A stretch of 36,057 nucleotides of DNA from Anaerolineae bacterium (GCA_013178015.1 JABLXR010000058.1:1-36057); one strand, 5' to 3'. Shown: positions 6,499 to 17,590, numbered from the stretch's first letter. The notes: generated from the sequence alone by a model not told the origin. Numbers and translations are program-made.

Positions 6499-8154
6499 AT
6501 GAACCAGGACCGCGTGGATGAGCCGCAGCAGGGCGAGACCGTGCTCTTGCAGGCCGGCGATCTCGTGGCCGCCGACCTCCGGCTACTGGAGGCCCGGGGG
6601 CTGGAGGTGGACGAGTTCGACGTGACGGGCGAAATCGTCCCGGTGGCCAAAGTGCTGGGCGAGGAGCCTACCATCCTGTATCGCGGCAGCCGGATCACCC
6701 GGGGCAGCGGCAAGGGCGTGGTGATCGCCAACCGGGAGGCGGCCGAGTACGAGGAGTACCTCAGGCAGCCGTGGGAGCCACAAGCGGGTACGCGGCCGTC
6801 GCCCATCGAGGGAAGCCGCTTCTGGTGGCTGGCCCTCCTGTTACCGCCGCTCCTGGTCGCCTTCCACCACTACGGCGCCCGCCCCCTGCTTTTCCTGCTG
6901 GCCGCCGCTACGGTAGTCCTGGTCCTGGTACTGCCGAACGGCGCGCTCTTCCAGTACGTCGCGACCAGGATGGCGGCGGCAAAGCTGCGCGACCGAGGCA
7001 TCCGCGTGCGAGGCGAGCGCGCCCTGGAGCGTTTGGGCGCCCTGGACACCGTCTGCCTGGACAAGACCGGCGTCCTGACATCCCGCGAGATGGTGGTGAG
7101 GCAGGTCCATTTCGCCGAGGGGCCAGCGGATATGGCCGCTTTCGGCAATGGCGGTGAACGCGCCACTCTTACCGAAATGGCGTGCGCCCTCGGCAACGAC
7201 GTCTTCTTCCTGGAGCGGCTCGGGCGGGCCGACCCCATAGACAGGGCCCTCGTCGCCTTTGCCGAGAGCCGCGGGTTCGACATCGGCGAGCTGACCCGGA
7301 AGCACCCCCGGATCTACGATCTACCCTTCGATTCCGAAGCCAGGTATATGGCCGCCGGCTTCGACTTCCACGACCACGCCCTCTACTTCGCTAAGGGAGA
7401 TCCGGAAGTCATCCTCCCCATGTGTGGTGACTACCTCAACGCGGTGGGCGCCGAGACGAAGCTGGACCCAGCCGCTTTGAGCCGCTTGCGCCATCACCTG
7501 GAGGCAGCCGGCCAGGCGGGGGACATTCTCATCGCCTTGGCATACCACCGCGGCGCGCGGGGTGCGCCGCCCCAGCGCTACACCTTCCTGGCGGCGGTCC
7601 AGTTGGCAAACCCTCTCCGGCCGGGGGTCCCCGCTATGGTGGCCGGGCTCAAGGAAGCGGGCCTGAGGGTGGTCATGCTGACCGGTGACCGGCTGGAGAC
7701 GGCCATGGCCATCGCCCGAGAAGCCGGGATCTATGCCGGTCCCGCGGCCAGCCGGACCGGTAAGCAGGTCGCAGCCATGGCCCTGACGGAATTGGCCCGG
7801 CGGACCGCTTCTGCGTCCGTCTTCGCTCGGTTGTTGCCTTGGCAGAAGGGACTGCTCATCCGGGTCTGGCGACAGACAGACCAGGTTGTGGCCATGGTCG
7901 GCGATGGCGCCAATGACACCATCGCCCTGCGGGTGGCGGACGTGGGCATATCTCTCGTCGAGGGCAGCTCCCCCCTGGCCAAACGGGAGTCCCAGGTCCT
8001 CATCCGGGAGGTGGGCGACCTCTTGCCACTCATCCAGGGAGCCAGGAGTCTGCACCAGCTGATCCGGCGCTTCGTGGTGGTGCGGATGACAGCCCTAATG
8101 GCCGTGCTGTTGCCCTGGTATGCCTGGATCTCTGTCGTAGCCCTCCCCCTCTAG
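6499..8154 (+). CDS. P-type (P2-like) cation ATPase truncated at both ends
   Basis: 551 residues against about 900 for a full P2 ATPase. It begins inside the actuator domain (GDLVAADLRLLEARG, then TGE near residue 44). It has two membrane helices (about 105-150), the phosphorylation motif DKTG at 188, KGDPEVIL, TGD near 395 and the hinge MVGDGANDTIALRVADVGIS near 466-484. It stops after one further helix. Helices 1-2 and 6-10 are missing. The ion-site motif of helix 4 (usually PEGLP) reads PNGAL, losing the conserved Glu, and GVNDAPAL is changed to GANDTIAL. ATP-handling motifs survive but ion transport looks impossible. ATG 6499 follows a GGGAG site. It is either a relic or a catalytic core with another role. 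Confidence 0.8.
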   Translation: MNQDRVDEPQQGETVLLQAGDLVAADLRLLEARGLEVDEFDVTGEIVPVAKVLGEEPTILYRGSRITRGSGKGVVIANREAAEYEEYLRQPWEPQAGTRPSPIEGSRFWWLALLLPPLLVAFHHYGARPLLFLLAAATVVLVLVLPNGALFQYVATRMAAAKLRDRGIRVRGERALERLGALDTVCLDKTGVLTSREMVVRQVHFAEGPADMAAFGNGGERATLTEMACALGNDVFFLERLGRADPIDRALVAFAESRGFDIGELTRKHPRIYDLPFDSEARYMAAGFDFHDHALYFAKGDPEVILPMCGDYLNAVGAETKLDPAALSRLRHHLEAAGQAGDILIALAYHRGARGAPPQRYTFLAAVQLANPLRPGVPAMVAGLKEAGLRVVMLTGDRLETAMAIAREAGIYAGPAASRTGKQVAAMALTELARRTASASVFARLLPWQKGLLIRVWRQTDQVVAMVGDGANDTIALRVADVGISLVEGSSPLAKRESQVLIREVGDLLPLIQGARSLHQLIRRFVVVRMTALMAVLLPWYAWISVVALPL

Positions 8155-8208: not shown

Positions 8209-8220
8209 GGGAGGCGTAGA

Positions 8221-8875
<655 letters not shown>

Positions 8876-8920: not shown

Positions 8921-8948
8921 GAAGTTGACATTCGAGAGCCTTCTGTGT

Positions 8949-9038
8949 CGGGCGATGAGGCTCGCCCCGAGCACTCAGCTCAGAACTATCGCGAGATTGA
9001 TAGCCTCTACCAGATCGAGCTGGTAGAGGCTCTTCTGT
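8949..9038 (+). promoter_or_regulatory. Fluoride riboswitch 2 controlling the moxR operon
   Basis: P1 is GGGCG/CGCCC around AUGAGGCU (8950-8967). An extra GAGC-ACUCA-GCUC hairpin follows, then P3 AUC-GCGA-GAU (GNRA loop), then UGAUAGCCUCUACC. The loop GAGGCU pairs with AGCCUC (9002-9007). The 3' strand AGCCUCUACCAG (9002-9013) alternatively pairs with CUGGUAGAGGCU (9020-9031) before a T-rich tract, giving a 12-bp terminator. The layout is the same as riboswitch 1, with matching terminator arms, but the P1, P3 and accessory hairpin sequences covary. They are separate functional copies rather than a recent exact duplication. Confidence 0.92.
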
Positions 9039-9060: not shown

Positions 9061-10032
9061 ATGGAAACTCGAGAAGTGCAGGAAGCTGCGGCGCGCATAC
9101 GAGCGAACGTGTCCCAGGTCATCGTCGGCAAGGACGATGTGGTGGACCTGCTCGTGGTGGCTCTGCTCTGTGAGGGGCATGTCCTCCTTGAGGATGTGCC
9201 GGGAATCGGCAAAACCACTCTGGCCAAGGCCCTGGCTCGCAGCCTCGGGTGCTCGTTTCAGCGAGTGCAGTTCACTCCGGACCTCCTTCCCTCAGACATC
9301 ACCGGGGTGAGCGTCTACAACCAGAAGACGGGAGACTTCGAGTACCGGCCCGGGCCGGTCATGTCCCAGATACTGCTGGCCGACGAGATCAACCGCGCTG
9401 GGCCCCGCACTCAGAGTGCCTTGCTGGAAGTGATGCAGGAGCAGCAGGTCACGGTGGACGGTGTGACACGGGCCGTCCCTCGGCCTTTCCTGGTATTGGC
9501 CACGCAGAACCCCATCGAGCTGGAGGGTACCTTCCCTCTCCCCGAGGCACAGGTGGACCGTTTCCTCATGCGGGTGGCACTGGGTTACCCCGACTTCGAG
9601 GAGGAACGCGCCATAATGCGGCGTTTCCGCGATGCCGACCCGCTGCGCCACCTGGAGCCCGTCGTGTCGGCAGACGAGGTCCTGCAGCTGGGGGCCATCT
9701 GCCGCCAGGTGTTCATGCACGAGGTGATCGAGAGCTACATCATCTCCCTGGTGCGCCGGACACGTCGGCACGAGGCACTCGCTCTGGGGGTGAGCCCGCG
9801 CGGGTCACTGGCACTCATGCGCACCAGCCAGGCCTTCGCTGCCATGCAAGGACGCAACCACGTCCGGCCGGATGACGTTCAGGCGATGGCCAAGCCGGTG
9901 CTGGCCCACCGGCTCCTGCCCAGCGTCCAGACCCGCCTGCGAGGTCATGCGACCGACGACATCCTGAACGAGATCCTGGAACAGGTGCCCGTGCCGGTGG
10001 AGAAGGACTGGGCCGTCGAGGAGCTGGCATGA
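9061..10032 (+). CDS. MoxR-type AAA+ ATPase
   Basis: 323 residues. Walker A is EDVPGIGKTTLAKALA (about residue 45), Walker B is ILLADEINRAGPRTQSALLE, and sensor 1 is VLATQNPIELEGTFPLPEAQVDRFL. The C-terminal lid domain has the SPRGSLALMRTSQAFA segment typical of MoxR proteins. MoxR ATPases act as chaperones for metal insertion or for maturation of secreted and membrane complexes, commonly with a DUF58 partner. ATG 9061 is preferred to GTG 9049, which would overlap the GGAGG site. It is the first gene of a four-gene operon after fluoride riboswitch 2; its stop overlaps the DUF58 start (ATGA). Confidence 0.93.
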   Translation: METREVQEAAARIRANVSQVIVGKDDVVDLLVVALLCEGHVLLEDVPGIGKTTLAKALARSLGCSFQRVQFTPDLLPSDITGVSVYNQKTGDFEYRPGPVMSQILLADEINRAGPRTQSALLEVMQEQQVTVDGVTRAVPRPFLVLATQNPIELEGTFPLPEAQVDRFLMRVALGYPDFEEERAIMRRFRDADPLRHLEPVVSADEVLQLGAICRQVFMHEVIESYIISLVRRTRRHEALALGVSPRGSLALMRTSQAFAAMQGRNHVRPDDVQAMAKPVLAHRLLPSVQTRLRGHATDDILNEILEQVPVPVEKDWAVEELA

Positions 10033-11243
10033 GGGGACCCCGCTGGTGGTGGCTTCTGGCGATTCTGTTCGCTGCCAGCGTCATCCAGCACCACGCCGGC
10101 CTCTTCCTGTTCACGCTGATGCTGGGCTTTGCCGCGCTGGCCTCGGTGATGTGGGAGCGCTTCGCCTTGGCCGAGCTCTCCTACACCCGACATCTGGGGC
10201 GGACGAGCCTCGCCTTCGGAGAGGAGACCGATCTGTCGGTCGTAGTCTATAACGCCAAGCCGCTCCCCCTGCCCTGGGTGCTCATCAATGATCAGTATCC
10301 AGACGGCCTCACCCTCGTCACCGGTCAGCTGGGCGTCAGCCGCACGGCCAGCTTCAAGCGCGCCTTGGTCAACTTCCTCGCGTTGCGCTGGTACGAGAGG
10401 GTGCGACGGACCTACCGCGTCCGAGGAGACCGAAGAGGCGTCTACGAGTTCGGCCCGGCCGAGGTCTACACCGGGGACCTCTTCGGCTACCGTCGCCAGC
10501 AGATGAGCATAGACCACGTGGATACCCTGTTGGTGTATCCCAAGGTAGTGCCAGTGGAGGCACTGGGGTTGCCTGCCGGCCGACCCGTGGGCGATGCGGC
10601 CTACTCTAGACGCATCGTCGAAGACCCGTTGCGTCAGGCAGGAGTACGAGAGTACGTACAAGGGGACAGCATCAGGCACATACACTGGAAGGCGACCGCT
10701 CGCACGCAGCACCTCCAGACGCGTGTCTTCGACCCCAGTGCCAGCCATCGGCTGGTGATAATGGTGGACGTGCAGACTGCGCACCAGCCGTACTCCGTAG
10801 TGCCACAGTACCTGGAGCTGATCGCGTCGGCCGCCGCCTCCGTAGCCATGGACAGCCTGGACAAGGGTTACGCGGTGGGTCTGATGGCCAATGCCAGCGC
10901 CGTGCACGACAGACAGCTGACCGCAGTCCCGTCGGGTCGCCACCCAGAGCAAGCGAGGGCCCTCCTCGAAGCGCTGGCCCGCCTTACCAACTTCCGCCTC
11001 ACGCCGTTCTCGCGGCTCTTGTCGAACGCGGCACCCATCTTGCCTTACGGGGCCACCGTCGTAGCTCTGACAGCCCAACCTGATGAGCAGGTACAGGCTG
11101 CTTTGGTTCGGCTGCAGGATGCCGGGCACCCTGTGGTCCTGCTCACGGTGGGGGAGGAGCCGGCGGTCAACGGGATGATCGAGAGGTATCACCTTGGAGG
11201 AGTGGATGCCTGGGAGAGGCTGGAGAAGCTACAACTGGCTTGA
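10029..11243 (+). CDS. DUF58 membrane-anchored vWA-like protein, MoxR partner
   Basis: 404 residues. Two N-terminal membrane helices (about residues 7-40) precede a cytoplasmic or envelope-facing portion. The DUF58 signature VREYVQGDSIRHIHWKATAR lies near residue 210-230 and is followed by a vWA-like fold with LVIMVDVQ. DUF58 proteins accompany MoxR ATPases across bacteria and are thought to present substrates or to bind metal through their vWA-like domain. Here it is translationally coupled: the start codon overlaps the moxR stop, and its 3' end overlaps the next gene by 38 nt. Predicted fluoride-induced through riboswitch 2. Confidence 0.92.
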   Translation: MRGPRWWWLLAILFAASVIQHHAGLFLFTLMLGFAALASVMWERFALAELSYTRHLGRTSLAFGEETDLSVVVYNAKPLPLPWVLINDQYPDGLTLVTGQLGVSRTASFKRALVNFLALRWYERVRRTYRVRGDRRGVYEFGPAEVYTGDLFGYRRQQMSIDHVDTLLVYPKVVPVEALGLPAGRPVGDAAYSRRIVEDPLRQAGVREYVQGDSIRHIHWKATARTQHLQTRVFDPSASHRLVIMVDVQTAHQPYSVVPQYLELIASAAASVAMDSLDKGYAVGLMANASAVHDRQLTAVPSGRHPEQARALLEALARLTNFRLTPFSRLLSNAAPILPYGATVVALTAQPDEQVQAALVRLQDAGHPVVLLTVGEEPAVNGMIERYHLGGVDAWERLEKLQLA

Positions 11244-12690
11244 CAGCGTAGCCATACCGGTGCTGTCGGCCGCCATGCGCGTGGCCTGGGTGGTTCCAGT
11301 CAGCAACGCCCTGATGGGCAGCGGCTTCGTTGCCCCCTCCGCCCGGTTGTCAGCCTGGCTCCCATTGGCAGTCCTCTTGGGGGCCTCGTTCACTGCGCGG
11401 CGCCTCGCGGCTCGTCCGGGCGGGCGGGTTCTGATGGCGCTAGCGGGCGTGCTGGTGATGCTGGGGAGCGCCGCCCTCGTCCTGGCACCAGCCAGTCCCG
11501 GCGACTTGTGGCGACACGCCATGGACTGGCACGAGGCCGTCCCGGCCATTTGGGTGCTGCTGCCCGTCTTCGGCGGACTCTGGCTGCGTGGGATCAGCAT
11601 CGACTGGATCGAAGCTGAGCCCCTGCGACGCGGCTTCGTCACCGGCGTCCTGGCACTCGCCGCCCTGGCCCTACTGGGCGGATACGGGTACAGCCTAGGC
11701 CTGGGCATATCCGACAGCCTGCTGGAGCCCTTTGTCGCCTTCACCGTCTCCGGTCTCGTTGCCTTGGCCCTCAGCGACATCTCCCTAACTCTGCGTCAGA
11801 GCGCGCGCTCGAGCGGGACCCGGCCGGGGTTGGGCCGGTACTGGTTGTACGTGGTGGGCGGGTCGGTGTTGGCGGTCCTTCTGGCGGCCTGGCTGGTCGC
11901 TCTCATTGTCGCCCCTGAGACGGTTGAGGCGGCCGCTCAGGCGCTGCGGCCGCTGCTCAGGCTCTTCCAGCCAGTCGTGAACCTGTTGGCGCGTGTCCTC
12001 GCCTACCTCATCACCGGCATCGCCTACATCGTGTTCACCATACTCGAGCCCCTGATCAACTGGCTGCGCTCGCTGGCCTCCGGCGAGCCGCCCGACGAGA
12101 ACATCCTAGACCGCGCCAACCTAGCCGAGCAGTTGCGAGAGCTAGAGCCGGGCGGGCAGGGCGGCGCCGAGCTCGGCCCCTGGGTGCAAGGTGTGCTGGT
12201 TGTGGGCCTGCTGGGCCTGGTGGCACTAGTGTTCGTCCTAGCCTTCCGTCGCCGGTATGCCACCAGTCCGGATGGGATGGTAGAGAGTCGCGAGGTGGAT
12301 TGGTCGTGGCATCTGATGCGGGAGCAGTTGGGGCGCTGGCTCTCCCGGCGCCGCCGCCAGACGCGATCACGCTTCCTGCCCCTACTGGAGAACGAACAGG
12401 GCCGGGTGCAAGTGCGGACGGCATACAGGAGGTTGCTGGCCAGCGCCGGCGGCCACGCCCCGGGACAGACGCCTCTGGCCTACATGCGTCAGCTCGCAGG
12501 GTCGGGGCCAGAGCTGGAGGAGCCGCTGGCGGCCCTCACCGAGGCCTATCAAATGGCCCGGTACTCCAGCGAACCTCTCACCCCAGAGACGGTGGCTGCT
12601 GCTCTACAGTCTCTAGCCCAGGTGGAGGCCCTGCTTGGCGCCCGCCACCCTGGCGCTCCCGAGCCCGAGGGCGACGGCAATGGCGGGTGA
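11206..12690 (+). CDS. Multi-pass membrane protein with C-terminal DUF4129
   Basis: 494 residues. About seven to eight hydrophobic helices span residues 13-290. A lone helix near 330-350 follows, then a cytoplasmic arginine-rich linker (RRRRQTRSRF) and a DUF4129 domain (VRTAYRRLLASAG, then TPLAYMRQL and ALTEAYQMARYS). In many MoxR-DUF58 operons the third gene is a transglutaminase-DUF4129 fusion; here the transglutaminase Cys-His-Asp domain is absent and only membrane helices plus DUF4129 remain. ATG 11206 is chosen for the GGAGG site six bases upstream, giving a 38-nt overlap with DUF58. It is probably a membrane component of the same complex. Confidence 0.8.
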   Translation: MPGRGWRSYNWLDSVAIPVLSAAMRVAWVVPVSNALMGSGFVAPSARLSAWLPLAVLLGASFTARRLAARPGGRVLMALAGVLVMLGSAALVLAPASPGDLWRHAMDWHEAVPAIWVLLPVFGGLWLRGISIDWIEAEPLRRGFVTGVLALAALALLGGYGYSLGLGISDSLLEPFVAFTVSGLVALALSDISLTLRQSARSSGTRPGLGRYWLYVVGGSVLAVLLAAWLVALIVAPETVEAAAQALRPLLRLFQPVVNLLARVLAYLITGIAYIVFTILEPLINWLRSLASGEPPDENILDRANLAEQLRELEPGGQGGAELGPWVQGVLVVGLLGLVALVFVLAFRRRYATSPDGMVESREVDWSWHLMREQLGRWLSRRRRQTRSRFLPLLENEQGRVQVRTAYRRLLASAGGHAPGQTPLAYMRQLAGSGPELEEPLAALTEAYQMARYSSEPLTPETVAAALQSLAQVEALLGARHPGAPEPEGDGNGG

Positions 12691-13159
12691 CGAGGTCGGG
12701 GCTGACCCGGCAGGCAAGGGAGCAGGCCTCTCCGATCTGCTGCGGGAGTACCAGCGTAACTCCCTGGTGGCTACTCTGCGTGCCTGCGAGAAGAGTCTGC
12801 GTGAGGCACAGGAGCAGCTGAGAGGCCCCCTCACCGAGGGCATCCTGTACCGCCGGGTGCTCAACCTCCCCGCCGGCCGGCGCCAGTCTGCCCTGGACCT
12901 GGTCGAGGAGTGCTTGGCACTCCTGGCAGAGATAGCGCGCGGTTTTGACCTGCGCCCGGCGGAGGAGGACCTGGCGCAGGCAATCGCCGCTTCCATGACC
13001 GTCTGCTGGGCTAACCTGGGAGACGCCAAGTCGGGCAAGCTCAGGGCCTACGGAGAGGTAGATCCACGCTTGGGTGAGGCGCTCGACCCATCGCTGGATC
13101 GGCTCGAGCGGCTGGCGCTTGCCATTGCTTCTTTGCTGCAGGTGCCGGGTCGCGAGTGA
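12680..13159 (+). CDS. Uncharacterised helical protein, last gene of the moxR operon
   Basis: 159 residues. The start ATG 12680 overlaps the end of the DUF4129 gene by 11 nt, so it is translationally coupled. The protein is soluble and strongly helical (repeated Leu/Ala/Glu/Arg segments such as LLREYQRNSLVATLRACEKSLREAQ). It has no signal peptide, membrane helix or motif I recognise. Its position as fourth gene after the moxR-DUF58 pair suggests a cytoplasmic accessory subunit. No terminator hairpin is evident before the next promoter at 13263. Confidence 0.75.
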   Translation: MAGDEVGADPAGKGAGLSDLLREYQRNSLVATLRACEKSLREAQEQLRGPLTEGILYRRVLNLPAGRRQSALDLVEECLALLAEIARGFDLRPAEEDLAQAIAASMTVCWANLGDAKSGKLRAYGEVDPRLGEALDPSLDRLERLALAIASLLQVPGRE

Positions 13160-13262: not shown

Positions 13263-13291
13263 TTGACTGGCGGCACCGGATCGGGTATTAT
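13263..13291 (+). promoter_or_regulatory. Strong sigma-70 promoter for riboswitch 3
   Basis: TTGACT (13263-13268), exactly 17 bp, then TATTAT (13286-13291). It is the best promoter match of the island and lies 11 bp before the fluoride aptamer. Confidence 0.75.
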
Positions 13292-13301
13292 TGCCACAGC
13301 G

Positions 13302-13432
13302 ACGGGGATGGAGTCCCCCAAGAGAGCCACTAGAGGCTGATGACTCCTGCCATGGATAGAGGCTCCTGGCAGGAGCGCCGTTACAGCAGACGAAGAGAAC
13401 TCCTGCCAGGCTCAGACTTGGAGGAGTTCTCT
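13302..13432 (+). promoter_or_regulatory. Fluoride riboswitch 3 with three-strand switch and sequestered SD
   Basis: P1 is GGGG/CCCC around AUGGAGU (13304-13318). P3 is GCC-ACUAGA-GGC, then CUGAUGACUCCUGCC; GGAGU pairs with ACUCC. The expression platform has three competing strands. S1 CUCCUGCCA (13344-13352) pairs with UGGCAGGAG (13367-13375). S2 CCUGGCAGGAG (13365-13375) is perfectly complementary to S3 CUCCUGCCAGG (13400-13410). S3 overlaps the stem AGAGAACUCCU/AGGAGUUCUCU (13394-13404/13422-13432). Fluoride should lock S1 in the aptamer, free S2 to capture S3, and open the last hairpin. That hairpin contains the GGAGGAG ribosome site (13420-13426) for the ATG at 13436, so both termination and translation may be controlled. 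Confidence 0.9.
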
Positions 13433-13435
13433 TTT

Positions 13436-15265
13436 ATGTCCTACGCTCGAGACACGAACACATCTGCTACCGCCGAGCCCGGCCTGCGCACTGCCGGCGA
13501 GGACCTCGGGGAGCTTCTGGAGCTGGCCGTCGTCCGCCTGGAGACGCTTGGCTCTGAGTACGCTCCAGATCGAGACCGACTGATGTCGCTGATGCAGCGA
13601 CTGAGGGAGCAGCAGCTTCACCTGGCCGTACTGGGCCAGTTCAAGCGGGGCAAGAGCACTCTGCTCAATGCGCTCATCGGCGCGGACATCCTGCCAGCCG
13701 CAGTAGTCCCGCTCACAGCCGTGCCCACCCTGCTACGCTGGGGGCCGGATCTGAGCATGCGGGTATTCTACCAGGACGACCACCGTCAGGAGCGTTTCGA
13801 CGGCGAGAGCACCGAGGACGTGGCGGCTCGTCTCGCCCGCTACGTCAGCGAAGAAGGCAACCCTCACAACAGGATGGGAGTAGCTCACGTCGAGGTGACC
13901 TACCCTTCGCCTTTCCTGAGTGATGGCGTAGTCCTGATAGACACCCCGGGCATTGGATCTACCCTCCGCCACAACACCGAGGCCACGCTCGACTTCTTGC
14001 CTCAGTGCGACGCCGCGCTCTTCCTCGTCTCCGCCGATCCGCCCATGACCCAGGCCGAGATGGAGTTCCTGAAAGCGGTGCGCGCCAAGGTTCCCCGACT
14101 GTTCTTCGTCCTCAACAAGGTGGACTACCTCAGTCCGGAGGAGCTCGAGCATGCCCTCCGCTTCTTGCGGCGGCTGCTGGAGAAGGAGAGCTGCCTCACC
14201 GACGACACCCCCGTGTTCACGGTGTCGGCTCGGCAGGGACTGGAGGCGGTTGAGAACCAGGACGCAGACCTGTGGCAGCGCAGTGGGCTTCCGGAACTGC
14301 AAGAGCATCTTTCCGCCTTCCTCCGCCACGAGAAGGGGGCGGCGCTGGAGAGAGCCGTGGCCCTCAAGGCGGCCGACAGCGTAGCCGGCTCCCTGGCTCA
14401 GGTCCGCCTGGCCATTCGCTCCCTGGAGTTGCCCCTTTCTGAACTGGAACGGCGTGCCCGTCTGCTTCAGGAGACGGTTGACCAGGCCAGGGAGCAAGCC
14501 CTTGCCGCCAAAGACCGCCTCCGAGGCGACCGGGAGAGGACGGTGGCGTTCCTGGAAGAGCAGGCCGCCCAACTACGCGAGCGGTCGAGAGCCCACCTCA
14601 TCCAGGCCGTTCAGGAACATCTGGGCGACGGGCCCGGCCAGGTGCCCGACGAGAAGGCTGCCGGCGAGGCGCTGGCAGCCGCCATCCCCGAGTTCTTCCA
14701 GCGCGAGCTGGAGACCACAGCCGAGGAGCTTCGGGCCCGGGTGACTGCCGTGCTGCATCCGCATCAGGAGCGAGCGGACGATCTCATAGAGTTGGTTCGC
14801 TCCACCGCGGCAGAGCTGTTTGAGGTGCCCTACCGGGCTCCGGAGAGCAGTGAGGCGTTCGAGGCTGGTCGCCGGCCTTTCTGGGTCACCCACAAGTGGA
14901 ACCCGATCATCACCCCCATCCCCGAGGAGGTGTTGGACAAGCTCTTGCCCGCGCGCATGCGACGCAAGCGAGTGCTGGACCGGCTGGGCTACCAGATCGA
15001 GTCCTTGGTCAGGCACAATGTGGAGAACCTCCGCTGGGCAACCTTGCAGGACCTCAACGAAGCCTTCCGCCAGTTCGGCCTGAGCCTGGACGAGCGGCTG
15101 CGGGATACGGTCGCCGCCACCCAGGGAGCGGTGCAGGCGGCCTGGAGCAAGCGCCGTGAGCGCGCCGAGGGTGTAGCGGAGGAAAAGGAGCGCCTCCTGG
15201 TGGCGGCAAGGGAACTGGCGTCGATCGGGAACCGCCTTCGGGATTTGGCTGGGCTAGCGCAGTGA
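13436..15265 (+). CDS. Dynamin-like GTPase under fluoride riboswitch control
   Basis: 609 residues. The GTPase domain has G1 GQFKRGKST near residue 67, a G2 Thr in VPLTAVPT, G3 DTPG near 169 and G4 NKVD near 227. Long helical regions follow (from about 330 to the end) with heptad-like Leu/Glu/Arg content, as in bacterial dynamin-like proteins. There is no clear transmembrane hairpin; a short hydrophobic segment WNPIITPIP near 485 could be a membrane paddle. Bacterial dynamins remodel or protect the inner membrane, often under stress. ATG 13436 is chosen because it directly follows the riboswitch-controlled Shine-Dalgarno sequence; an in-frame ATG at 13340 lies inside the aptamer. It overlaps the next gene by GTGA. 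Confidence 0.88.
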   Translation: MSYARDTNTSATAEPGLRTAGEDLGELLELAVVRLETLGSEYAPDRDRLMSLMQRLREQQLHLAVLGQFKRGKSTLLNALIGADILPAAVVPLTAVPTLLRWGPDLSMRVFYQDDHRQERFDGESTEDVAARLARYVSEEGNPHNRMGVAHVEVTYPSPFLSDGVVLIDTPGIGSTLRHNTEATLDFLPQCDAALFLVSADPPMTQAEMEFLKAVRAKVPRLFFVLNKVDYLSPEELEHALRFLRRLLEKESCLTDDTPVFTVSARQGLEAVENQDADLWQRSGLPELQEHLSAFLRHEKGAALERAVALKAADSVAGSLAQVRLAIRSLELPLSELERRARLLQETVDQAREQALAAKDRLRGDRERTVAFLEEQAAQLRERSRAHLIQAVQEHLGDGPGQVPDEKAAGEALAAAIPEFFQRELETTAEELRARVTAVLHPHQERADDLIELVRSTAAELFEVPYRAPESSEAFEAGRRPFWVTHKWNPIITPIPEEVLDKLLPARMRRKRVLDRLGYQIESLVRHNVENLRWATLQDLNEAFRQFGLSLDERLRDTVAATQGAVQAAWSKRRERAEGVAEEKERLLVAARELASIGNRLRDLAGLAQ

Positions 15266-16086
15266 GCGACCCTATCAAGCTACGCCATGCCCTGCCTGTG
15301 ATCAGCCTCTCATCGGTGGAGCGCTCCCTGGCCGTGGCTCAGACACTTCTGCCGGCCAGTCCCGATGTCGAAAGCATCCGCCATGAGATCCAGGCCTGTC
15401 GCAGCATTGTCAGCGGGCTGGCTCATCAGTTGGGGGTCCCATGGCAGGCCCGGCCGGTGAGCCGCTTCGTCCGTCGAGAGCTGGCCGAGGTCGGCCGGGC
15501 CCTTCGCAGCATGAGAGCGGTCGAGGGGGAAGCGGCGGAACCCCTGGCTCCGATGCTGCGAGAGGGACGTCAGGGACTAGAAGGGACCATCAACCGGCTG
15601 GAGGCCGTGGCCTGGGGACACGCCAGTACCGGCGAAGCGCCGCTGGCCCCAGTTCCTGGCCACCCGGCCGAGGTCTCGCTATCTGGGGAACAGGCCCTGC
15701 TCCTGGGCAGCGCCATGAAGGTGATGCGGCAGTATCTGGCTGCGGCACGGGCCTGGGCAGAGGCGGCGGACATGGCCATGACCGGCACGCTAGAGGCTTC
15801 CTACAGCCACGCTGAATCGCGGATGCTGCAGAGCTTGTGCCTAGAGTCCGACGCGAAGGTGGCAGCGCTGGCCGCTGCCTTCGGCCTACGCGAGGGCCCC
15901 CCGCCGTGGGAACAGGCACTGGCCGAACGGCTGCTGGAGGCGGGTCATGCCGCCAACTCGCTTTTCCAGGTGGCTATGGCGGCCCGGCGATCCTCGCTCC
16001 CAGGTACCGTGCCCCTGAGCCCCACTCTTGGCCAACTCGCCATTCGCCTCAAGGAACTGCACCGCCACACCATCCCGGCGGACTGA
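15262..16086 (+). CDS. Uncharacterised helical partner of the dynamin-like GTPase
   Basis: 274 residues. GTG 15262 overlaps the dynamin stop by four bases, so expression is coupled. Almost entirely helical by composition, with no signal peptide or clear membrane segment; no domain recognised. Bacterial dynamin-like proteins often work as heteromeric pairs or with small helical partners, so a direct physical partner is a reasonable inference. It shares fluoride riboswitch 3. The 150 bp after it hold no gene before the convergent HEAT-repeat pseudogene. Confidence 0.75.
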   Translation: MSDPIKLRHALPVISLSSVERSLAVAQTLLPASPDVESIRHEIQACRSIVSGLAHQLGVPWQARPVSRFVRRELAEVGRALRSMRAVEGEAAEPLAPMLREGRQGLEGTINRLEAVAWGHASTGEAPLAPVPGHPAEVSLSGEQALLLGSAMKVMRQYLAAARAWAEAADMAMTGTLEASYSHAESRMLQSLCLESDAKVAALAAAFGLREGPPPWEQALAERLLEAGHAANSLFQVAMAARRSSLPGTVPLSPTLGQLAIRLKELHRHTIPAD

Positions 16087-16238: not shown

Positions 16239-16636
16239 CTACAGAGACGGACGCAAGCCTCCAGGATCACACCCGTCAAGTGCCCTTCGAGCCGCCCGAC
16301 GCACGATCACCGACCGATTCTCGTCTCTCGCCAGCTCCTCCAGGAGGGCACAGGCCGAGGCACCCCCTATGGCACCCAGAGCGTTGGCAGCCTCGGCAAG
16401 CACATACGGGTCGGCGGGAGTGTCTAGCAGCCTTGCCAGGGGTACTACTGCCCGCTCATCGCCCAGCAGGCCCAGCACGTATGCCGCTCGGCGCTGGGTT
16501 AGGGGTTCAGGGTGGGTGAGGGCAAGGATGAGCTTGTCCAGGTAGGCCAGATCGTCCCCCTCCAGGAGGGCGCCACAACTGGGGCACACCTCTGGGTCGC
16601 GTCGCATCGGCCCAGACAGCGAGGGCAGAAGCGCAT
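16239..16636 (-). pseudogene. Zinc-ribbon plus HEAT-repeat protein with a single-base frameshift
   Basis: From ATG 16636 (AGGAG site about 10 nt upstream) the frame reads MRFCPRCLG, the first CxxC of a zinc ribbon. The second half, PMRRDPEVCPSCGALLEGDD, is in a different frame and leads into two to three HEAT/PBS-lyase-like repeats (QRRAAYVLGLLGDERAVVPLARLL and AEAANALGAIG). The frames join perfectly if one G is added to the GGG run at 16611-16613. This is either a recent inactivating mutation or a homopolymer sequencing error. It lies 51 bp after the DUF6062 gene, in the same fluoride-controlled unit. A ~130-residue metal-binding scaffold is likely if intact. Confidence 0.7.
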
Positions 16637-16686
16637 CACAGGCGGATTCTCCTACACGCTGCGGGCCCATTTGAGACCGAGCCTCG

Positions 16687-17412
16687 TCACGACAATCCTT
16701 CCTTGCCCGCTATCTGGGCGATGGCGTGTAGCCAGGCGTCGCCCACCTCGCCCAGCCCCTCCTCCTGGTAGCGGTAGTCATGGCGGCGAATCATCTCGTC
16801 CAGGTCCCGCAGAAGGCCGGAGAACGCCACCTTCGCCCCGGCCACGAGCAGACGAAACGTGTTCTCATCCCGCACACGCTCCAGCGCCAGGCGCAGGTGA
16901 GGCAGGCAGAGCCCCCTACCCTCCCCCAGAGCGCTTTGAATCTCAGGATCCTCCAGGTTCTCCAGAAAGATGTCCGTATACATGGCCTCAGTGCGATGCT
17001 GGGTGGCACAGGCCGGGCACTGACCGGAAGGCGTGAGCGAGCGTACGGCATCGGCCGTGGCGGAGCTGGGACGCTCTCTGTCTACCGCCTCCGCCACCGC
17101 CCGCGGCAATAGGCGCCCAGAGGAGTTGTAGTTCGCATTGTCGAGCGACTGGACCACGTCCCGCACCACGTCGCGGTAGATGATGGCCATGCCCAGAGCG
17201 CCGCCGTGACGGCGAAGCTGCCAGGCATGCAAGCGGCAGAAACCTTGCGCCGCCCGCGTGCGCTTCCTGACGCCGGGGTCGTTCACCTGCTCGTAGATGA
17301 GGGAGTCCAGGTAGCGGGCCACGGCACGCTTGCCCAGCTCGCAGACGGGGCAGCCCCCGGCTCGCAGCGCTTCCAGACACTCGAAGTACGGAGTGTGTTT
17401 GGTCTTCCCCAT
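16687..17412 (-). CDS. DUF6062 family cysteine/histidine protein under fluoride riboswitch control
   Basis: 241 residues matching DUF6062: CPVCEL near residue 21, YEQVNDPGVR, GFCRLHAWQLR near 60, then a second CPAC near 132 and LCLPHLRLAL near 165. The repeated CPxC plus FCxxH/LCxxH arrangement suggests two similar metal-binding (probably zinc) modules. The function is unknown. ATG 17412 is preceded by AGGAGG; an in-frame GTG at 17430 is an alternative. It is the first gene after riboswitch 4 and precedes the frameshifted zinc-ribbon/HEAT gene. It converges with the dynamin operon. Confidence 0.85.
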   Translation of the reverse strand: MGKTKHTPYFECLEALRAGGCPVCELGKRAVARYLDSLIYEQVNDPGVRKRTRAAQGFCRLHAWQLRRHGGALGMAIIYRDVVRDVVQSLDNANYNSSGRLLPRAVAEAVDRERPSSATADAVRSLTPSGQCPACATQHRTEAMYTDIFLENLEDPEIQSALGEGRGLCLPHLRLALERVRDENTFRLLVAGAKVAFSGLLRDLDEMIRRHDYRYQEEGLGEVGDAWLHAIAQIAGKEGLS

Positions 17413-17446
17413 TCGCCCTCCTGCTCCCACGTGAGCCAGAAAAGAC

Positions 17447-17582
17447 AGAGAACTCCTGCAGTCACTTCTTCAGCAGGAGTTCTCTTCCTGTGCCCTAATG
17501 AACGCCCCTGCCCGAAGCTCTATGGTTGGCAGGAGTCATCAGCCCTTTCAGGCACTCTAGCAGGGGGACTCCATCCCCATCC
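17447..17582 (-). promoter_or_regulatory. Fluoride riboswitch 4 (minus strand) before DUF6062
   Basis: Read on the minus strand: P1 is GGGG/CCCC around AUGGAGU (about 17579-17564). P3 is GCC-UGAAA-GGGC, then UGAUGACUCCUGCC; GGAGU pairs with ACUCC. S1 CUCCUGCC (17535-17528) can pair with S2 GGGCAGGGG (17513-17505). S2 can also pair, with one G-U, with the CUCCUGC of S3 (17479-17473). S3 belongs to a 13-bp terminator AGAGAACUCCUGC/GCAGGAGUUCUCU (17485-17473/17459-17447), followed on the minus strand by GTCTTTT. The logic matches riboswitch 3, with conserved switching strands but different linkers. The Shine-Dalgarno sequence lies downstream of the terminator, so control is by transcription attenuation. 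Confidence 0.9.
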
Positions 17583-17590
17583 CAACTACC

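Follow-up and report, generated by a model that had tools for sequence, protein, structure and literature searches.

The genes known to be controlled by fluoride riboswitches include exporters, Na+/H+ antiporters, enolase, and MutS (PMC2864571; PMC11139923), and the known defenses against fluoride are export, pH balance, and the replacement of inhibited enzymes. Bacterial dynamins often work with a partner that is encoded in the same operon (PMC6104087), and Cj-DLP (PMC6104087) and DynA (PMC8844932) work on the membrane. Here we describe a dynamin-like GTPase (P0001) and a helical partner (P0002) that lie behind a fluoride riboswitch in an Anaerolineae bacterium. The window that we analyzed (GCA_013178015.1 JABLXR010000058.1:1-36057; 36,057 nucleotides) is one whole contig (G000:C58) from a 4.57 Mb draft genome. 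We propose that the GTPase is a bacterial dynamin induced by fluoride, that P0002 is its dedicated helical partner, and that the locus is one case of a widespread fluoride-response family; we put the probability of this at roughly 60%.

In most respects the switch resembles the known regulons of crcB riboswitches (RF01734). The aptamer and its pseudoknot are the same, and so is the company that it keeps (crcB, enolase, Na+/H+ antiporter, MutS, and UspA). What differs is the target: in the literature that we searched (the original crcB paper and reviews from 2020 and 2024), the fluoride-riboswitch targets that are named include no dynamin or GTPase. We found no open-access paper that combines riboswitch, dynamin, and fluoride, although the 2012 fluoride paper might mention a dynamin in passing in its gene lists.

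The GTPase can be compared to BDLP1 from Nostoc punctiforme, IniA from Mycobacterium, Cj-DLP1/2, and mitofusin/Fzo1. Like them, P0001 has a GTPase domain and a helical stalk. Unlike them, it lies in a separate clade, with ~13-20% identity in structural alignments. It also differs from BDLP-type systems in that its partner is a four-helix protein instead of a second dynamin and in that it is under fluoride control. Another relative is DynA from Bacillus subtilis, a stress-linked membrane dynamin involved in membrane surveillance and phage tolerance, whose model is matched by 46/46 members of P0001's family. However, P0001 has 609 amino acids while the DynA model has 1187 positions, and P0001 is fluoride-regulated. 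Also, P0001 misses the curated NCBIfam cutoffs for DynA (72 bits versus 1600), LeoA (27.7 versus 325), CrfC (35.3 versus 1146), and slr1306 (36.6 versus 490).

The features of the locus are:

13263-13291, + strand: sigma-70-type promoter-like site TTGACT-17-TATTAT, with 10/12 consensus matches (mean 0.0 in shuffles)
13295-13356, + strand: fluoride riboswitch aptamer (RF01734; 37.2 bits against a gathering cutoff of 34; E = 6e-07)
13344-13375, + strand: hairpin H1 (CUCCUGCCA / UGGCAGGAG; 13344-13352 with 13367-13375), from folding and from reading the sequence
13365-13410, + strand: alternative hairpin H2 (CCUGGCAGGAG at 13365-13375 with CUCCUGCCAGG at 13400-13410), from reading the sequence directly
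13393-13437, + strand: hairpin H3 (AAGAGAACUCC / GGAGUUCUCUU; 13393-13403 with 13423-13433), running into a short U stretch (UUA)
13436-15265, + strand: dynamin-like GTPase P0001, 609 amino acids (Dynamin_N, profile, model, and fold search)
15262-16086, + strand: helical partner P0002, 274 amino acids, with two four-helix units; a divergent duplicate of the h174 family
12680-13159, + strand: helical protein of the h174 family (open reading frame listed from 12635; ATG at 12680, overlapping the preceding gene's end)

The initial annotation had claimed a promoter and a switch ahead of the gene, and a 609-residue GTPase whose gene overlaps that of a helical partner by four bases. All of these are found at the positions above; P0002 starts at a GTG within the overlapping GTGA. 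The start codon of P0001 is kept in the homolog from a related genome (G002), where it follows the same GGAGG hairpin. An alternative start at 13340, which would give 641 amino acids, was rejected: it would fall inside the aptamer, and it is not conserved in G002.

The pseudoknot of the dynamin aptamer is of the canonical type (GGAGU at 13310-13314 with ACUCC at 13343-13347), and the folding of the leader beats 200/200 shuffles (z = -4.8). Among 61 dynamin-linked aptamers, the third pair of P1 covaries (GC in 32, TA in 19, CG in 5, and AT in 1), and the sole variation within the pseudoknot is a change from A-U to G-U at one pair. Compensated pseudoknots, such as GAGGC/GCCTC and GAAGT/ACTTC, are found in other aptamers of the set. 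The Rfam cutoff, the covariation, and the conservation rule out a chance aptamer. On contig C15 of the same genome, crcB lies directly behind a fluoride aptamer of the variant-pseudoknot type, which anchors the ligand as fluoride. This gives indirect support to the view that the dynamin-linked aptamer senses fluoride.

The 5' untranslated region of P0001 contains a predicted expression platform, with the promoter upstream, mutually exclusive hairpins, and the start codon 80 nucleotides downstream. H3 is terminator-like and covers the Shine-Dalgarno sequence (GGAGG at 13420-13424); a consensus terminator scan of the leader did not report it. We propose that H2 is an antiterminator, which would form with the strand released from H1 and so disrupt H3. 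G002 has the same leader design, with an H2 equivalent of 13 bp. The competition between H1, H2, and H3 predicts activation by fluoride; the order in which the hairpins would be exchanged is modeled.

Both its sequence and its modeled structure identify P0001 as a dynamin of the BDLP/IniA/mitofusin kind. It matches Dynamin_N (E = 2.9e-29), and a profile of the 46-member family finds BDLP1 first (E = 2.8e-39) and then Campylobacter dynamin-like proteins (DLPs), IniA, and mitofusins. In the 46 family sequences, the P-loop (GxxxxGKS), T94, DTPG, and NKxD are invariant or nearly so. The AlphaFold model (predicted local distance difference test score, or pLDDT, of 83.9) has a GTPase head and a stalk of long helices, with modeled helices at residues 300-331, 334-396, 406-462, 506-575, and 577-605. 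The top match for this model in Foldseek is BDLP (E = 5.5e-22), and VIA-align gives Z scores of 21-27 for mitofusin, Fzo1, IniA, and BDLP (25.1 across 525 residues for IniA and 21.6 across 523 for BDLP). Between the stalk helices, the tip of the stalk (about 463-505) has an invariant tryptophan (W483) and an LLP motif, and is modeled with low confidence.

The initial annotation had named tRNA-modification GTPases as an example of the families that could overturn its dynamin assignment. This alternative is excluded: P0001 scores 20 bits against the NCBIfam model for MnmE (cutoff of 252.6), and its nearest relatives of known structure are BDLP, Cj-DLP, IniA, and mitofusins. Ribosome-biogenesis GTPases were rejected as well, with scores far under their cutoffs.

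A scan of 84,980 species genomes yielded 344 relatives of P0001, and we analyzed the best 80 of the 344. These were picked by similarity to P0001, not by the presence of a riboswitch. We ran the Rfam RF01734 model over the 80 genomes and mapped the aptamers to dynamin loci on the same strand. In 60/80 loci, an aptamer lies -5 to 218 nucleotides ahead of the matched dynamin region, so the link between riboswitch and dynamin that the initial annotation saw at one locus recurs among the closest relatives of P0001. The aptamer is farther off (0.36-3.3 kb upstream) in 9 more loci, and 4 of the 80 are cut by a contig edge. A pattern search that required both P1 and the pseudoknot (~1.3 matches expected per 1.31 Mb) also gave matches upstream of dozens of the 80 relatives. 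The 60 paired loci span at least 13 named phyla and include the archaeal Methanobacteriota (methanogens; 12/13). Carriers of the family dynamin include the named strain Moorella sulfitireducens SLA38 and several methanogen genomes.

As a comparison, we fetched 27 loci of the class (L015-L041) in the same way as the 80. Most of them hold DLPs from other subfamilies (with L015 a GTPase-DUF6062 fusion and L018 a fragment), and none of the 27 has an aptamer within ~1.5 kb. In our survey of the class, only G000, G002, G193, and G297 have contigs with both a listed relative of P0001 and a fluoride aptamer. In a phylogenetic tree, the family dynamins form one clade (Shimodaira-Hasegawa-like approximate likelihood ratio test, 99) apart from the controls and from the GTPase-DUF6062 fusions. 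Because the pairing recurs across phyla of both bacteria and archaea, it looks like an overlooked and conserved part of how microbes survive fluoride.

P0002 is modeled as a duplication of a four-helix unit (pLDDT of 71), and its sequence places it as a homolog of the protein that is encoded upstream of the riboswitch, from a helical family that we name h174. A profile of h174 gives two weak matches to P0002 (together 20.7 bits, with E = 1.4e-5 in a set of 821 proteins), and the homolog from G002 bridges the two; simple pairwise BLAST missed this relationship. A fold search with P0002 gave generic four-helix matches only (Z of 10.9 or below), which is uninformative for helical bundles. An h174 homolog is directly after the dynamin in G002, and h174 follows the dynamin in several loci. 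Methanoregula encodes a fusion between an h174 domain (residues 6-144) and a second dynamin GTPase (Dynamin_N at 202-343), beside the family dynamin. This locus (L096) has divergent fluoride riboswitches near 9777 (- strand) and 9897 (+ strand), of which one leads to enolase and the h174-dynamin fusion and the other leads to the family dynamin.

The window also contains these features, among them three switches that the initial annotation of the locus left unmentioned:

8215-8289, + strand: third fluoride aptamer, with the variant pseudoknot GAGGC/GCCUC, before an enolase fragment (24.6 bits, below the cutoff)
8942-9015, + strand: probable fourth fluoride aptamer (GAGGC/GCCUC), before the MoxR operon (found by pattern only and unreported by Rfam)
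9061-12690, + strand: MoxR operon within the same island, with a MoxR ATPase (9061-10032), DUF58 (10029-11243), and a DUF4129 protein (11194-12690)
16239-16670, - strand: HEAT-repeat protein, whose relatives adjoin the dynamin in other genomes
16687-17430, - strand: DUF6062 (PF19538) protein, with the likely ATG at 17412 and its own riboswitch (Pfam E = 1.5e-21)
17523-17587, - strand: second fluoride riboswitch, before the DUF6062 gene (40.5 bits)

DUF6062 is a family of unknown function for which our literature search gave no match. The gene in the window is a member of this family, which here shows a tie to fluoride: of 67 fluoride riboswitches in the class, 13 immediately precede a DUF6062 gene, and another 8 lie within 8 kb of one. 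DUF6062 also occurs in fusions with dynamin GTPase domains, in Chloroflexota and Bacillota. The fusions with dynamins tie both DUF6062 and h174 to dynamin function independently of the window. The DUF6062 protein in the window and its relatives have two CPxC...CxxH-type modules (CPVC...GFCRLH and CPAC...GLCLPH), which suggests a metal-binding protein with an internal repeat. Another contig of the genome has a second riboswitch operon (L042, G000:C13, 5738-10323), which comprises a fluoride aptamer, a major facilitator superfamily (MFS) transporter, a GTPase-DUF6062 fusion, and another MFS transporter. As in the window, G002 has a weak fluoride aptamer (C181:2217-2297, + strand; 25.8 bits) directly before a DUF6062 gene (2387-2992).

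Within 7 kb of the family dynamins, we found enolase at 18 loci, MFS transporters at 16, Na+/H+ antiporters or exchangers at 14, and MutS-like proteins at 10. Rarer neighbors are DUF190 (6 loci), the CrcB fluoride channel (5), and UspA (4). The identities of these neighbors were confirmed with Pfam on representatives. In G002, MoxR and DUF58 come after the homolog of P0002. In G193, a single riboswitch heads a HEAT protein, the dynamin, an MFS protein, and two MutS-like genes (L046, 3151-10308). A prenyltransferase-toroid-like protein recurs beside the dynamin (L056:7327-8172, L113:4695-5588, and L102:2082-2897), and in L113 and L102 its gene is directly behind a fluoride aptamer.

Two other genes in the window are worth describing. 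The enolase fragment behind the third aptamer (8330-8875, + strand) matches the N-terminal 136 positions only, and there is a full-length enolase elsewhere in the genome (C43); the truncation reflects either the decay of a second copy or a collapse in the assembly. A P-type ATPase-like protein (6499-8154, + strand) begins at the actuator domain, without the membrane part that is usual at the N-terminus. A protein with 42% identity to it adjoins a GTPase-DUF6062 fusion in G297 (L047:6264-7952), and the ATPase-like protein is possibly a further member of the fluoride island.

How might the locus work? Without fluoride, H1 would hold the 3' strand of the pseudoknot, and H3 would terminate transcription and hide the ribosome binding site. 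Fluoride and Mg2+ would lock the pseudoknot and block H1, and the strand freed from H1 would pair with the 5' side of H3 to form H2, so that the mRNA for the dynamin and its partner would be completed and translated. The dynamin, with its GTPase head, long helical stalk, and flexible conserved tip, might then assemble on the cytoplasmic membrane with the four-helix partner, and might seal, tether, or reorganize membrane that is stressed by the entry of hydrogen fluoride (HF) and by acidification. It would act alongside the CrcB exporter, Na+/H+ antiporters, and a replacement enolase, all under the same signal. The riboswitch, the identity of the dynamin, and the conserved linkage are read from sequence; the steps at the membrane are drawn from dynamin biology, by which the module probably protects or remodels the membrane. 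The idea in the initial annotation that fluoride damages membranes or makes them permeable is likewise an inference. Fluoride enters as HF, acidifies the cell, and reportedly alters the structure and integrity of the membrane (PMC11139923), which would be a reason to induce a membrane dynamin together with exporters and antiporters. A broader claim is that bacteria and archaea share a dedicated membrane module for fluoride stress, made up of the riboswitch-induced dynamin, the four-helix partner, and, in many lineages, DUF6062; the remodeling or repair of membranes would then be fundamental to surviving fluoride. We make this claim tentatively, with a little less than even confidence.

Several observations weigh against our proposal. 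P0001 lacks a confidently modeled element for membrane insertion, as the tip is of low confidence. A thermodynamic (minimum free energy) model still forms H3 when the strands of the pseudoknot are blocked, so the switch, if it works as proposed, must be co-transcriptional. The 80 relatives were chosen by similarity, and the sample covers the best of the 344, ahead of 264 weaker ones. Also, only a few of the 298 sampled genomes of the class carry a family dynamin, so fluoride tolerance does not depend on it.

The main alternative to a role at the membrane is that metal-fluoride complexes act on the GTPase itself. MgFx and AlFx would mimic the gamma-phosphate in the dynamin site, and either extra protein would offset the inhibition or metal-fluoride-GDP would be the active, oligomerizing signal. 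The near-invariance of the GTPase motifs would fit this explanation, as would the GDP-AlF4 structures of related GTPases and the precedent of enolase-type targets, which are fluoride-inhibited enzymes made in excess (PMC11139923). However, the riboswitch is missing from other dynamins of the class, so mere sensitivity of the GTPase fails to explain why one subfamily is controlled, and the family, as a dedicated clade found within fluoride islands, is no duplicate of a housekeeping GTPase. We consider this explanation unlikely. We are similarly doubtful that the GTPase is not a membrane shaper but the motor or regulator of a machine for protein assembly or metal-site maintenance, together with MoxR-DUF58, DUF6062 (with its CxxC...CxxH modules), and HEAT proteins. 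The window, G002, and a Clostridiales genome (L080) do each combine the dynamin with MoxR-DUF58 and DUF6062, and the GTPase-DUF6062 fusions in two phyla point the same way. But in most of the 80 loci the dynamin has a riboswitch of its own, and neither MoxR nor DUF6062 is close by, and the full-length family retains the long stalk that is typical of membrane dynamins.

The dynamin could instead be a passenger, a general stress or phage-defense gene (LeoA-like) that is in fluoride islands by chance. Its top match in PADLOC is LeoA (E = 5e-26), and dynamins such as DynA protect against phage (PMC8844932). Yet P0001 falls short of the curated LeoA cutoff, PADLOC gave no defense family match for the partner or for DUF6062, and in the 60 paired loci the dynamin has its own riboswitch immediately upstream, with varied gene order, which makes a passenger quite improbable. 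Least credible to us is an aptamer ligand other than fluoride. Several aptamers of this genome do have the variant pseudoknot GAGGC/GCCUC, and one of these is below the Rfam cutoff, but the dynamin aptamer itself carries the canonical GGAGU/ACUCC, an aptamer of the variant type sits right before crcB in this genome, and the neighbors are known fluoride genes.

If a fluoride-induced membrane dynamin is the correct interpretation, then the membrane would be added as a target of fluoride, or as a barrier to it, across two domains of life. A group of bacterial dynamins would also gain a physiological cue. Two uncharacterized families, DUF6062 and the four-helix family of h174 and P0002, are given a context by these findings.

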